A stretch of DNA of 25,548 nt from a virus. Made by a program: the position numbers and the translations under genes. Shown in pieces: positions 1-4,836 of this stretch. The notes under the pieces were generated by a model. That model searched no databases. It was not told the DNA's origin and worked only from the letters and a program-made list of their open reading frames with translations. Each line of letters opens with the position of its first letter. Positions within the stretch are counted from its first letter, which is position 1. The stretch covers positions 1 to 25,548 of the IMG/VR virus record IMGVR_UViG_3300020428_001534, one strand, 5' to 3'.

Positions 1-54
1 ACCAGAATCCCATCCGTCTTGCATATAATCCTTGGTAGGAATTTCTTTGCTCAT
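1..54 (-). CDS. 5' end of an unidentified gene, cut by the window edge
   Basis: An ATG at 54-52 opens a frame that runs off the left edge; the 18 visible residues begin MSKEIPTKDY. Its ATG shares the ATGA tetranucleotide with the TGA stop of the upstream helicase gene, the same coupled arrangement used repeatedly in this window, which is the main reason to believe the start. Too little is visible to assign a family. Its position makes it the last visible member of the helicase/methyltransferase cassette, so its identity would help decide what that cassette does. Confidence 0.6.
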   Translation of the reverse strand, partial: MSKEIPTKDYMQDGWDSG

Positions 55-1232
55 CTCATGTTAGCAATTACAGGTTCGCCCTCGACAAAGGCGGTATCAT
101 AGACAGTCTCTAAACGACGAGCAGTTGATATACCCACATTGTTACTGTAGGTAGGAACAACAATGTTCCCAAACTGCTTGTCTGGTGCAGGACGAATAAC
201 ACGACCAACAGACTGACACATCTCAATGACATTCATATTCCTAAGAAGAATAAGAGATGTCAAACCAGGTACAGAGATACCCTCACTCAAGATTGAGTAG
301 TGTAGAAGAACAAACTTCTTATCAGGATCTTCTCCATATTCTCTCATGGTATCAAAGAACTCATCACGAGATACCTTCTTATTGTTGATAAAAGCACCAT
401 GCCTTGCAGTAATCCAGAATAGATCATATCCTAACCATTTAAGGAAGGAACAGAATTCTGTCTCACTGAGCATCCTCATCATCACCTTAGTATTAGGTGC
501 AGCAACTAGAACCTTCTCCATGTGATCTTCATTTACAATCTGATCTAGGAGAGTCTCACAATCAAGATGATGATCATCCTTCTCTCTAGGAACAGGAATA
601 CTCACAGTCTTAATCTCTGGAGGGAGAATAGTACCAGACTCAACTAACTTGGGTGCAGGTACATTGTAGATAATCCCACCAAAGAGATCATCATTCATTC
701 CTGCTCTCTTATGAGTACTGCTAAACTTAGGAGTAGCAGTAAAGAAATAGCACCCACCATGAACTCTAGTTGCAAAAAATTTAACAGCAGGGTAAAAATT
801 TCTTTGTACACTGTTGTGTGCCTCATCAAAGTAAATAGCATCTACATTAATACCTGACTCAACTACCTTATGCAAAGAATGATAGGTAGTAAAAATAATT
901 CTATGCTGCTTACGGAAGTAATAGCAAAATGTAGAGATCTTATCAGGTTTAGTGGCAGAGTGGTAGTTACCAGAATCTCCACTATGAACATGTAGAACAC
1001 ATGCATCAATAATATGCTCAGTAAATTCTGAACATAACTGATTAGCAAGCAGTAGTCTAGGAGCAACAACTACAATGGTCTTTTGACCAAAGAATGAAGG
1101 TTTACTAAACAAACTCTTGGCATGCTCTATGGCAATCATCGTCTTACCACCACCTGTGGGGACACAAATGATTCCCTTACGCTTATGACGCATAACGTCA
1201 AGTGCTTCTTTTTGGTGTGTACGAAGTTCCAT
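51..1232 (-). CDS. SF2 DEAH-box helicase / translocase
   Basis: This 393-residue protein is a nearly bare superfamily 2 helicase core. Visible motifs are Walker A PTGGGKT (25-31), motif Ia VVAPR (about 54-58), the Walker B box DEAH (136-139), motif III TATP (165-168), motif V around SEGISVPG (316-323) and motif VI QSVGRVIR (340-347) with its arginine fingers. All core motifs look intact, so ATPase activity is expected. No nuclease or DNA-recognition domain is visible, and the N-terminal extension before Walker A is only about 24 residues, shorter than I would expect for T4-like UvsW. It starts 28 bases after the methyltransferase gene and its stop overlaps the next gene by ATGA. The core resembles the translocase parts of restriction enzymes as well as UvsW-type helicases. 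UvsW remains the main alternative; context favours a role with the methyltransferase. Confidence 0.88.
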   Translation of the reverse strand: MELRTHQKEALDVMRHKRKGIICVPTGGGKTMIAIEHAKSLFSKPSFFGQKTIVVVAPRLLLANQLCSEFTEHIIDACVLHVHSGDSGNYHSATKPDKISTFCYYFRKQHRIIFTTYHSLHKVVESGINVDAIYFDEAHNSVQRNFYPAVKFFATRVHGGCYFFTATPKFSSTHKRAGMNDDLFGGIIYNVPAPKLVESGTILPPEIKTVSIPVPREKDDHHLDCETLLDQIVNEDHMEKVLVAAPNTKVMMRMLSETEFCSFLKWLGYDLFWITARHGAFINNKKVSRDEFFDTMREYGEDPDKKFVLLHYSILSEGISVPGLTSLILLRNMNVIEMCQSVGRVIRPAPDKQFGNIVVPTYSNNVGISTARRLETVYDTAFVEGEPVIANMR

Positions 1233-1260
1233 ACGTATATTATATCATACTATGGGAAGG

Positions 1261-1677
1261 TCACTCAAAGAACTGGTCTAATGTTACATCTCCAACAGTT
1301 CCATCAAAACGATAATGATATTCCAATCCATTAGCACACACATAATGAGGATGATCTATAGGTACACCCAATCTGTCACACATCTCATTATGATTATCTT
1401 CCATGAACTCTACAGCATACAACATGTTATTAAGAACATGCTCTCTACTATGCCACCTCATCAATATCTTCTTTAACTGTACAATAAAATTACCATTACC
1501 TGCTGAGTTATCTAAGAATGTAGAAGTTGGATCTTTAAGAACACTCTCAGGTATACCAAGAATCATCTTGTCACATAAAGCAGGTGGAGTGAATACCTCA
1601 GCAGTATTAGCAATCCTCTGATCACTTCTACTGATAGTAGATCCAAGTTTTTGATTGTGTCTATTCTTAGAGGACAT
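1261..1677 (-). CDS. SAM-binding half of an adenine-N6 DNA methyltransferase
   Basis: The 138-residue protein carries the front half of a gamma-type N6-adenine methyltransferase: a motif X-like AEVFTPPALCDKM (26-38), motif I FLDNSAGNGNF (54-64, the DxxxGxG SAM loop), a motif II-like YAVEFMEDN with Glu90, and a motif III-like CANGLEYHY near 114-122. It stops at residue 138, where the next strand and the catalytic NPPY (motif IV) would normally follow, and no NPPY is present. The gene directly upstream encodes a protein with NPPY but a poor motif I; the two overlap by 11 bases (ATG at 1677, upstream stop at 1669-1667), implying coupled translation. I infer that the two chains assemble into one enzyme. 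The alternatives are a decayed fragment or a regulatory SAM-binding protein. The start is a clean ATG. Confidence 0.75.
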   Translation of the reverse strand: MSSKNRHNQKLGSTISRSDQRIANTAEVFTPPALCDKMILGIPESVLKDPTSTFLDNSAGNGNFIVQLKKILMRWHSREHVLNNMLYAVEFMEDNHNEMCDRLGVPIDHPHYVCANGLEYHYRFDGTVGDVTLDQFFE

Positions 1678-2974
1678 TGTTAGTCACCAGATAATCAACT
1701 TCCTCTTTAGTGAAGTTGAACTGAGTATCTAGATCATCATAGTCTGTAATATCAGGTACTTCTGAGTTCTTAACCGCAGCAGTGAATCCACCAGTCCTCT
1801 TATATTTGTCAATATAGAACTGAACTAATGGATGCCCAATAACCTCAGATAATCTCTCACCTTCTTCTCTATCTGTAATAGGACACCATACATTAAGCAT
1901 ACCAATATGTGCATCAGTTATAAATCTCTTCTTATATGAAGTAGAGTATGGTACAACAAACTTCAATACATCACCAGTGTCAGGTTCTATATTAGTCTTC
2001 CGAGGATTATTACCTGTATGTAAGACTTCATACTCACCATCATCACAATAATCTTCAGTAGCAATCGCTTGACCCATCCTCAATGGGATACGTGGATGAC
2101 TAGAGTTAGCAATCTTATTCAAGATAGAATACTCTAATGCTTTATTACCCCATACTGGTACACCATCACGAAGATCCCAATCAAACTCACCATCTTTTGT
2201 AATAACTCTAGTCTTACCTTGATATGGTTCCTTAGTTAAGTGCCAACGACATATAGAGACACCCTCAGTAAAATATTCATCTGCTGTATAATCAATCTTC
2301 TTCAAATTATAGATGGTAGAAGCGAGTTTAAGGAACTTCTTACCAAATCCAGTATCACCAATAAACGATGCAGGAGTAACCTCACATGCATCACCACCAT
2401 CATCCAACAAATCCATATGCTGCATAATGAATTTGTGCCACAACTTATTGTTCTTAGCAGGAGTAGTAGTATCCTGATAAGGAGGGTTAGCAAGAATTGC
2501 TGTTGGACGTAACACTGGTGCTTCGTTAGTGACGGTAATGTTCTTGTCAATATATTTTACTCTATTTGTATGGTTTTCGCAATGATCCCATACCGTCAAT
2601 CCATAAACATTAACATTCTTTTCCAATAGTCTAGCAGTATGAGAACCGCTTGGATCTCCATGTAGGAGAGTCTGTGAAGTGTCTTGTAAGTCAGCGATCA
2701 TTGTATCAAGTAGAGGTCTTGGGATAGTCTGATGGATGTCAGAAGATACTGAGAGGGAATCTAAAGTCTTAGATACCGACTGTCTCATATGTGTCTTAAT
2801 AGTATTGGTCTCTCTACCTATACGACGTGTAAGATTCTCTCTAGTAGTAGGATTCTTCTCAATTACTTTAGCAAGTACACCTTCAGTATCACCACTAACC
2901 TCACCATAAACTGATGAATCTATTATGTCTGATATAGAATTGATGTTCTTACCTTCCTTAATGATATAGAACAT
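1667..2974 (-). CDS. Catalytic/target-recognition half of an adenine-N6 DNA methyltransferase
   Basis: Counting from the ATG at 2974, the 435-residue protein has the catalytic motif NPPY at 164-167 preceded by a hydrophobic strand, and after it a strand-loop typical of Eco57I/type IIG-like methyltransferases (EVTPASFIGDTGFGKKFL, about 198-215). The C-terminal half (about 290-435) has the look of a target-recognition region ending in an N6-methylase-like tail. About 57 residues before NPPY is a Rossmann-like strand-helix-strand with HGDPSGSHTARLL (105-117), where motif I should be, but the GxG glycines are missing. The 138-residue protein encoded next supplies a good motif I. A TTG at 2980 preceded by AGAGAG could start translation two codons earlier. 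A hairpin lies in the 56-62 base gap upstream. The protein is a DNA methyltransferase subunit with fair certainty; target and partnership are inference. Confidence 0.8.
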   Translation of the reverse strand: MFYIIKEGKNINSISDIIDSSVYGEVSGDTEGVLAKVIEKNPTTRENLTRRIGRETNTIKTHMRQSVSKTLDSLSVSSDIHQTIPRPLLDTMIADLQDTSQTLLHGDPSGSHTARLLEKNVNVYGLTVWDHCENHTNRVKYIDKNITVTNEAPVLRPTAILANPPYQDTTTPAKNNKLWHKFIMQHMDLLDDGGDACEVTPASFIGDTGFGKKFLKLASTIYNLKKIDYTADEYFTEGVSICRWHLTKEPYQGKTRVITKDGEFDWDLRDGVPVWGNKALEYSILNKIANSSHPRIPLRMGQAIATEDYCDDGEYEVLHTGNNPRKTNIEPDTGDVLKFVVPYSTSYKKRFITDAHIGMLNVWCPITDREEGERLSEVIGHPLVQFYIDKYKRTGGFTAAVKNSEVPDITDYDDLDTQFNFTKEEVDYLVTNNVL

Positions 2975-3000
2975 ACTCAATGGTATACTCTCTACGATTG

Positions 3001-3032
3001 CCCTGACTACCTTTTGTTTAAGTAGTTCAGGG
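3001..3032 (-). other. Bulged inverted repeat between cassette genes
   Basis: The arms CCCTGACTAC (3001-3010) and GTAGTTCAGGG (3022-3032) form a 10-bp stem with one bulged A and an 11-base loop. It lies just after the stop of the GIY-YIG-like/helicase gene and about 27 bases before the methyltransferase start. In the direction of transcription no T-run follows, so it is not a standard terminator; RNA processing, mRNA stabilisation or translational control are possible. Confidence 0.5.
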
Positions 3033-3036
3033 TTGT

Positions 3037-4812
3037 CTACTTTTTTACGAGTACATCCTCTCTCGTTTGAGCACTATCATTATTACCACCACTGTCACCA
3101 ATCACTACATCCTTTATTACTTTAGATACAGCAGAATGACTGGAGAATATAGAAGCAGAGAAGTCAAACTCAACATCACTCAAATCCATTGAATGAACTA
3201 TACTACCCATTGAAGATATACTAGTCTCAATGTCAGCAGATAATGCACTCTCAAATGCGTCTTGATTAATTTCACTAAATCCATCTTGCCATTCAAAAAT
3301 ATTAGTAAAGTCTGTTACTTCATATTCAGATAACTGAGGATTACTATCACATGCCACCTGATATGCAGTGTAAACCGCCTTCAAGCAACGTTTTCCAGCA
3401 AAGTCAATTACCCACCAGTCATGGTCTCCAGACCCTCCACGGAAGGCAAACTGAGTCCAGAACTCAATAGATTCTCCACCCTTACAGTTCAAAATAGTAT
3501 CAATCTTCTCATTAGTAAAACCTAATACATTTGCAGACTGAGTAATGATAAGTGCTTTATTATTATCACCCATAAACTTCTCAATGTCAGCAGCATCACG
3601 ACCAGTATCACTAGTAACAACTAGAGCAGGATAATAACACTCAACTTCCTTCTTAAACTCATGACATGCTGCTACTGATGGTAAGCACATCATCATATAT
3701 GATCCTTCTAGAAGTCGATCACCAATCCTAAGATTGCGTTGAGGACCAAATGTATTAAAAGCAAATTCCTTTACAAGTTTTGGATAAAGGAACTTCTTAT
3801 CCTTCATCAAAAATATATTACCCATTGCATCTGGGTCATCACCAAAAATCTTCTTATACTCTGCACTCTGATAATCAGTCATTGCAATATTCATCTTAGG
3901 ACGTTCAAAGACTCCTCTCATAACATCCAACTGCTCATCAAAATAAGTATAGATAAACTTCTGATCTTCATTAAACATCCATGCTAACTTATGAGCAGTA
4001 CCAGAGACATATACTGTACGAGTATCTAACTTCTCCTTAAGATCAACAAACTCTTTAGCAGTTCCACCTATATGTGCTTCATCAAATATAAGAATCTCAG
4101 GTTTTGGTATGTCACGTTTAGTCAATGCTTGTACTGTTCCCCACAAAACAATATTAACTGGACGTTCCATCCAATATTCTAATTCCTTCTTCCAACTCTT
4201 ATTCTTAACTGAGATATATCTGACATTTGGGAAGAACTTATCAGAATCCTTCTTCCATGATTGCTCTGGTGACTTCTGTCTAGAACAAACAACACTCAAC
4301 TTGGTATCCCAGTTATCAATATGCTTAAGCATCATTGCAGACTTACCTGATCTAGGTTTAGCAAACAATAAAAAATCAGTGTAATCAGATTGCCATGCTT
4401 TAGAGATCTTATTTAAAAACCTCTGTTGATATGTACGTGGTTCAAATACTTCCCATTTCTTTACTGCACCAGAGAACCATCTCTCTTCAACCATCTGAAC
4501 TACCATATCCATACTATAGATAGACTCATCAAACTCAAAAGTCTCTCTACCAATCTGTGTCATACCAGGTAATTCTTTCTTCAACCAAGCATGTATAACA
4601 TGATCTTGATGACCTATATCCAAATCTTTATCACGTCTTGTAGACTGATCTTCCCAATATCCATGATTCACAAACTCAGAATTAAAGACAGTCAATATCT
4701 GCTTTGCTTTACCATAGTCACCATCACTATGCCTCTGTTTATATGAACGTGTAGTCTCACCAAGATTAAACCTATTAGGAATATTCTTGTAACCATCCAA
4801 ATAAAAATGCAT
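3037..4812 (-). CDS. SF2 ATPase with N-terminal GIY-YIG-like segment
   Basis: Starting at the ATG at 4812 (an in-frame TTG lies immediately upstream) the protein has 591 residues. The middle is an SF2 helicase: Walker A AKPRSGKS (151-158, with Ala in place of the first Gly), DEAH (244-247), motif III VSGTA (269-273) and a motif VI-like QFAFRGGSG (454-462) in which only one of the usual arginines is obvious. Residues 1-100 resemble the T5orf172/MUG113 branch of GIY-YIG nucleases: a first strand FYLDGY, then NLGETTRSYKQR (16-27, compare KIGKTTRSxxxR), then an HVIHAWL helix and GRETFEF (88-94). The usual catalytic Tyr and Glu are not certain. The C-terminal 100 residues are acidic and Ser-rich. 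The gene opens the cassette behind a terminator and precedes the methyltransferase, suggesting a restriction-like or DNA-processing role. The helicase assignment is firm; the nuclease domain is tentative. Confidence 0.82.
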   Translation of the reverse strand: MHFYLDGYKNIPNRFNLGETTRSYKQRHSDGDYGKAKQILTVFNSEFVNHGYWEDQSTRRDKDLDIGHQDHVIHAWLKKELPGMTQIGRETFEFDESIYSMDMVVQMVEERWFSGAVKKWEVFEPRTYQQRFLNKISKAWQSDYTDFLLFAKPRSGKSAMMLKHIDNWDTKLSVVCSRQKSPEQSWKKDSDKFFPNVRYISVKNKSWKKELEYWMERPVNIVLWGTVQALTKRDIPKPEILIFDEAHIGGTAKEFVDLKEKLDTRTVYVSGTAHKLAWMFNEDQKFIYTYFDEQLDVMRGVFERPKMNIAMTDYQSAEYKKIFGDDPDAMGNIFLMKDKKFLYPKLVKEFAFNTFGPQRNLRIGDRLLEGSYMMMCLPSVAACHEFKKEVECYYPALVVTSDTGRDAADIEKFMGDNNKALIITQSANVLGFTNEKIDTILNCKGGESIEFWTQFAFRGGSGDHDWWVIDFAGKRCLKAVYTAYQVACDSNPQLSEYEVTDFTNIFEWQDGFSEINQDAFESALSADIETSISSMGSIVHSMDLSDVEFDFSASIFSSHSAVSKVIKDVVIGDSGGNNDSAQTREDVLVKK

Positions 4813-4836
4813 CAATTTAATTTTACTGAACCTATT

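Follow-up and report, generated by a model that had tools for sequence, protein, structure and literature searches.

DNA methyltransferases fall into classes that differ by circular permutation, for which duplication with truncation has been proposed (Jeltsch 1999, as cited in PMC5944983), and permuted methylases are already known (PMC5944983). The catalytic motif IV reads NPPY in the gamma class and DPPY or SPPY in the beta class (PMC2890505). A naturally bisected enzyme, the C5-cytosine methyltransferase M.AquI, is described in PMC5944983 as the product of two complementing genes. Type ISP enzymes combine an Mrr-like nuclease, a translocase, a gamma methylase and a target-recognition domain (TRD) in a single chain (PMC3874165). 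In the open-licence literature, no paper was found that describes a phage adenine methylase split by nature into two genes of swapped order. The present analysis concerns two overlapping minus-strand genes on the IMG/VR virus record IMGVR_UViG_3300020428_001534 (25,548 nucleotides, here called the window), which is T4-like as judged from its gene content. The gene pair probably encodes one two-subunit N6-adenine DNA methyltransferase with the S-adenosylmethionine (SAM)-binding and the catalytic halves on separate proteins; we put the probability of this reading at about 0.7.

The smaller of the two gene products, a protein of 138 aa with motifs X, I, II and III (Table 1), matches the profile phrog_4376 over its full length (E 1.5e-59, residues 3-136 to positions 2-132 of 134). 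It also matches, weakly, the SAM regions at the N-termini of type II methylase profiles (TIGR02987, PADLOC MTase_II). Invariant among 35 homologues are T25, E27, F29 and T30, G60 and N63 with G62 between them (GxGN), E90 and D94/N95. Relatives are present in 55 phage records and 424 IMG/VR contigs, 80 of which were retrieved for closer comparison. The larger gene product, containing NPPY, matches phrog_3689 (DNA methyltransferase, E 3.2e-29) and, sub-threshold by the cut-off of Pfam, Eco57I (6.8e-5). Based on these three matches, the two overlapping genes are not a matter of chance. A system-level match for the window proteins was found neither in PADLOC nor in NCBIfam. The two open reading frames (ORFs), the motif positions and the 11-nt overlap are as described in an earlier sequence-only reading of the window, and the profile matches of both proteins are in line with the methyltransferase assignment made there. 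The sole match in a scan of genome contigs was a 138-aa gene with 84% identity on PAHT02000089.1 (L092), which is binned as a Rhodobacteraceae metagenome-assembled genome and is probably a phage contig.

Of 90 small-subunit genes examined, 80 have an NPPY-type partner encoded at most 900 nt upstream. Among the ten others, seven are located at the start of a contig, and one, S-SKS1, has a partner with NYPY that was missed by the NPPY search pattern. After clustering at 90% identity, 43 distinct partners remained. Their genes overlap the small gene in 37 cases, with exactly 11 nt in 12 of the 43. Overlap lengths are 2 modulo 3 (8, 11, 14, 17, 20 and so on) in 34 of the 37 overlapping pairs, which places the downstream gene in the same +1 frame each time; overlaps of the otherwise common 4-nt ATGA type are rare. 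Termination-reinitiation is a simpler explanation than a programmed frameshift joining both genes. Overlapping, out-of-frame genes might also result from a recent break, an assembly error or the decay of an intact methylase gene, which we consider extremely improbable here. An assembly or frameshift artefact is rejected because a large number of independent contigs and isolates share the overlap. In an intact gamma methylase the two halves stand in the opposite order, and the strong conservation of the small subunit rules it out as a remnant. Among the reference phages, the small gene is present in every genome with a window-type NPPY gene; homologous loci with such a gene and a missing or remnant small gene were looked for and did not occur. 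Compared to M.AquI, which is split between motif VIII and the TRD (PMC5944983), the methylase of the window is cut between motifs III and IV, with its genes in swapped order.

The larger protein consists, in this order, of an N-terminal helical region, a divergent SAM-type half (pseudo-SAM half), the NPPY catalytic half and a target-recognition region. The AlphaFold2 (AF2) model of the 435-aa chain (mean predicted local distance difference test score, pLDDT, 79) shows a complete predicted gamma fold in canonical order, and it aligns, also in canonical order, with CamA (Z 19.1) and M.TaqI (Z 18.6). SAM region, catalytic region and TRD order are thus all present in the model, while the motif I in cis is non-canonical and the canonical one is encoded by the other gene. 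Instead of the canonical motif, the window clade and its neighbours have a conserved DPxGxH(S/T). The earlier view of this motif as degraded is right insofar as a canonical GxG is absent; it is, however, not a random degradation, as the replacement is conserved and located in a predicted complete half-fold. Likewise, the large protein does lack the canonical SAM loop, as claimed, but carries a predicted divergent SAM half. A large subunit simply without SAM half is ruled out for the window by the predicted fold, and is true of 11 of the 43 relatives. With the gamma class (M.TaqI, CamA, M.BseCI, type I HsdM, Eco57I family), the window shares NPPY, the predicted fold of the large subunit and the SAM-half sequence, whereas its presumed working SAM half is a separate gene behind the catalytic gene and the half in cis is divergent, and absent in some relatives.

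Eleven of the 43 distinct partners start at motif IV, 9 have 50-130 aa and 13 have 130-330 aa before it, and 10 are helicase fusions; since the classes were drawn by length and pattern, single partners may be misassigned. A canonical SAM loop is absent from 42 of them, with one doubtful exception (DPAMGGG in L009), and the small-subunit profile, when run against the partners, matched none. The description of the locus as a pair is therefore well supported: the small gene stands beside partners without clear canonical motif I, partly starting at motif IV, and natural fusions of both halves exist (see below). That the window clade can do without the pseudo half as long as it has the small subunit is indicated most strongly by two loci sharing the flanks of the window, the tail-fibre gene and UvsW (L033 and L037). 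Their catalytic protein of 279-282 aa begins directly with motif IV and shows 57-58% identity to the matching portion of the window protein; a 139-aa SAM subunit comes next, and neither the helicase nor the pseudo half is encoded anywhere on these loci. The catalytic protein of P-SSM2 (193 aa, NPPY) is also without SAM half. As rejected candidates, a separate upstream ORF encoding the pseudo half of minimal partners was not found: L050-like loci have an unrelated protein there, by eye a 2-oxoglutarate/Fe(II) (2OG-Fe(II)) oxygenase, and L033 has the tail gene.

A self-sufficient large subunit, acting as gamma methylase by means of an unusual DPxGxH loop and assisted by the 138-aa protein as accessory SAM-binding or clamp-tethering factor, would agree with the complete predicted fold in canonical order, with Z values of about 19 to CamA and M.TaqI, and with the conservation of DPxGxH and of an acidic residue after strand 2 in the clade. 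This explanation is unlikely in view of the close relatives whose partners have no SAM half at all. Furthermore, the GxG was lost differently in the pseudo halves of different lineages (DPxGxH in the window group, VIESIEVI in Klebsiella phage PKO111, FDTFLTL in Bellamy, IPQDAHG in L066), and in the natural fusions the only SAM half is of the small-subunit type. The small subunits encoded with pseudo-half partners and those with partners lacking a SAM half are 63% alike between the classes and 65-72% within, and class-specific positions are almost nil. Since both classes are equally similar, a single mode of action, in which SAM is presented at the motif-IV edge, is the simplest reading. In ACG-2014f, an NPPY-only gene is located approximately 100 kb from the SAM gene, and both are found in 26 of 26 records. 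A cassette of nuclease-like protein, NPPY methylase and helicase lies beside the SAM gene in isolate Syn7803C90. Isolate Syn7803C7 is without this nuclease-NPPY-helicase cassette (comparison of L162/L163 with L005/L006) and retains the SAM gene and the NPPY-only gene; a distant pair kept without the cassette suggests sharing in trans.

Relatives of the pair are found in intact, split and re-fused form. From residues 4-7 on, the 193-aa protein of P-SSM2 aligns with intact phage methylases (KIL1, GAP32, phAPEC8 and XbC2; E 1e-12 to 1e-16) from their residues 80-110 onward. The first 80-105 residues of the latter are the SAM half, where the small-subunit profiles match weakly. These rv5/phAPEC8-type orphan adenine methylases share homology with the P-SSM2-type catalytic subunit along its entire length; they differ in being intact, their SAM half forming the N-terminal part of the one chain. 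A split in canonical order is seen in L128, where the small gene comes first and a 279-aa catalytic gene starts at motif IV. In L135, L137 and similar loci, a small SAM-half protein precedes a full-length methylase with the motif I DPACKSG or DPFTKTG, possibly a related two-gene arrangement in canonical order. Aeh1, phiAS5 and related Aeromonas phages encode single-chain fusions ordered IV...TRD...X-I-III, and positions 1-93 of TIGR02987 are matched by the C-terminus of the fused protein. L141 represents a second, divergent fusion in permuted order.

The AF2 model of the fused protein (417 aa, mean pLDDT 76, both halves near or above 90) is colinear across both halves with the beta-class enzymes MboIIA, M.RsrI, TTHA0409, CcrM and EcoP15I Mod (VIA-align; Z 8.5-9.8, root-mean-square deviation 3.4-4.6). 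Gamma-class enzymes align to it only as swapped pieces, residues 292-408 corresponding to CamA 24-158 and residues 1-124 to CamA 155-323. Judged from this model, the fused protein is a circular permutation relative to the gamma-class enzymes. The fused relatives thus share motif order and colinear structural alignment with the beta class (MboIIA, M.RsrI, CcrM, EcoP15I Mod), while they differ from it by NPPY instead of D/SPPY and by sequence relatives of gamma type, and the window itself has two chains. The sequence-only reading had also considered one enzyme in beta order. This applies to the Aeromonas fusions and L141 but not to the window chains, the large subunit itself being in canonical gamma order; given its predicted whole gamma fold, the beta order is true of the relatives and not literally of the window's two chains, where IV...TRD...X-I-III is formed by gene order only and not in one chain.

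Two features had passed unremarked in the sequence-only reading, the C-terminal tail of the small subunit and the helicase preceding the pair. The tail pattern is found at the small-subunit C-terminus in 62 of 67 distinct homologues, compared to 21 of 532 other ORFs taken as background. The window protein ends with TLDQFFE, its relatives with GVEQFF, SLEQFF or LLDIFDF. DNA polymerases (gp43) of the same genomes end alike (VNLDSFFS, VTLESFFG, SSLLDMFDF and ATLFDMFDF), the last being nearly identical to the polymerase tail ASLFDMFDF of RB69. The C-terminal peptide of the RB69 polymerase binds gp45 (PMC3012046; PMC2988020). By analogy, the sliding clamp of the phage is the probable binding partner of the small-subunit tail. 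Other methylases of cyanophages have similar ends, TLDSFFN in the Dam protein of ACG-2014f (L006:6949-7830) and LTQFFN in a methylase of S-CAM7 (L002:2107-2895), and clamp-type tails may therefore be general for cyanophage methylases.

The large subunit is fused to a helicase in many relatives (1040-1100 aa, e.g. L016). Motor, gamma-type methylase and TRD follow each other as in the type ISP enzymes LlaGI and LlaBIII. The differences are a GIY-YIG-like instead of an Mrr N-terminus, a SAM half expelled to a separate subunit and the location on a phage; moreover, the window has three separate chains and is not a type ISP enzyme by definition. No Mrr match of the window helicase N-terminus was obtained in the profile search. 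One Gly and one Arg are invariant among 16 aligned helicase N-termini, one of which matched a GIY-YIG family profile weakly (T5orf172/MUG113, E approximately 4e-4). A clear GIY-YIG domain (2.7e-15 and 6e-16) is present only in the Klebsiella and Vibrio partners. The GIY-YIG part of the NPPY protein of Klebsiella phage PKO111 (gp114, L004:4515-6002) matches PADLOC PD-T4-3 (6e-11). In Bellamy, ACG-2014f and Lak-B2 there is a separate protein, PD-(D/E)XK nuclease-like by eye (Mrr_cat only 0.12); in Prevotella phage Lak-B2 (L099, approximately 1-3915, code 15), helicase, PD-(D/E)XK-like protein, NPPY protein and SAM-half protein are encoded in a row. Helicase and methylase pair are probably a restriction-modification-type cassette with type ISP-like layout, and by this likeness restriction would be a reasonable role. 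The frequent fusion with the helicase, and NAPY for NPPY in one relative (L039), would also fit a catalytically dead large subunit that serves the helicase-nuclease as target-recognition and coupling part, with the small subunit only making restriction SAM-responsive. We regard this as quite improbable, as NPPY is otherwise kept (N163, P165 and Y166 are invariant) and in P-SSM2 and L033 the pair stands alone, with neither helicase nor nuclease.

According to the two-subunit reading, the 138-aa subunit would hold SAM via motifs X, I, II and III, and the 435-aa subunit would contribute the target-recognition region together with the NPPY loop for catalysis. The small subunit would dock beside the motif-IV strand of the large one and complete the active site in trans, at a site that would be empty or occupied by an unusable pseudo-SAM half in the relatives. 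In the window type, the pseudo half might move aside or act as a placeholder. Overlapping, translationally coupled genes would keep the subunits in step, and the LDQFF-type tail would tether the small subunit to the clamp, so that new phage DNA might be methylated while it is copied. The split, the complementary motif content, the conservation, the fusions and the fact that relatives have lost the SAM half in cis are read from the sequences, and the folds of the window large subunit and the fused relative are predicted. Several points weigh against this mechanism. The main weakness is the presumed displacement of the pseudo half: in the large-subunit model the Rossmann sheet is complete and includes a SAM-type half of its own (pLDDT approximately 90 in this half), and therefore the small subunit fits only by displacing the latter. 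The pseudo half also retains the conserved DPxGxH and a motif-II-like acid (VWE/VWD), and because of this some ligand binding by it is possible. Furthermore, the clamp tail rests on likeness to polymerase tails, and the GIY-YIG assignment of the helicase N-terminus is weak in sequence.

A more far-reaching interpretation, to which we give somewhat less than even odds, is that a clamp-tethered SAM subunit powers interchangeable catalytic/TRD partners in trans and that T4-like genomes preserve the steps of methylase permutation, a fission-and-fusion route to the beta-type topology. The steps would lead from the intact form via the canonical split (L128) to the swapped split with divergent cis half (window), then to forms without cis half (P-SSM2, L033), and finally to proteins re-fused in the new order (Aeh1, L141). 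The polarity from intact to fused is one that we infer. The split in many T4-like phages, staged up to swapped-order re-fusion, shows how methylases can be rearranged in evolution, and the relatives would represent living intermediates, open to biochemistry, of a route other than duplication and truncation. If a SAM half indeed serves two or more catalytic partners, including one at a distance of 100 kb, methylation specificity could be altered in a modular fashion, and a clamp tether, if true, would couple the methylation of phage DNA to its replication. The GIY-YIG-like/helicase cassette points to restriction-modification systems borne by lytic phages, so far annotated mostly as hypothetical proteins.

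On the minus strand of the window, the order of genes is tail-fibre-like gene, helicase, NPPY protein, 138-aa protein and UvsW-like helicase (Table 1).

Table 1. Features of the methylase locus and neighbouring genes in the window
Feature	Position	Strand	Evidence
Small subunit, 138 aa, putative SAM-binding half of N6-adenine methyltransferase, motifs X, I, II, III	1261-1677	-	phrog_4376 1.5e-59
Motif X-like EVFTPP, residues 27-32	1582-1599	-	conserved in homologue alignment
Motif I DNSAGNG, canonical GxG SAM loop, residues 56-62	1492-1512	-	G60, G62, N63 invariant
Motif II region YAVEFMEDNH including acidic residue E90	1390-1419	-	sequence and alignment
C-terminal tail TLDQFFE, probable sliding-clamp (gp45) binding peptide	1264-1284	-	tail counts, polymerase likeness
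11-nt stop/start overlap ATGTCCTCTAA, probable translational coupling	1667-1677	-	same length in 12/43 distinct partner clusters
Large subunit, 435 aa from ATG or 437 aa from TTG	1667-2974 (ATG) or to 2980 (TTG)	-	phrog_3689, Eco57I, AF2 model
Divergent motif I GDPSGSH of pseudo-SAM half, residues 106-112	2639-2659	-	DPxGxH(S/T) conserved in clade; without canonical GxG
Catalytic motif IV NPPY, residues 163-166	2477-2488	-	N163, P165, Y166 invariant in large-subunit alignment
Helicase, 592 aa, superfamily 2 (SF2)/ResIII motor and GIY-YIG-like N-terminal domain (approximately residues 1-115)	3037-4815	-	ResIII 1.7e-7, phrog_22930 1.1e-159
UvsW-like helicase	51-1232	-	
Tail-fibre-like protein, 1947 aa	4980-10823	-	

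The C-terminus of the 1947-aa tail-fibre-like protein resembles, by eye, an S74-type intramolecular chaperone.
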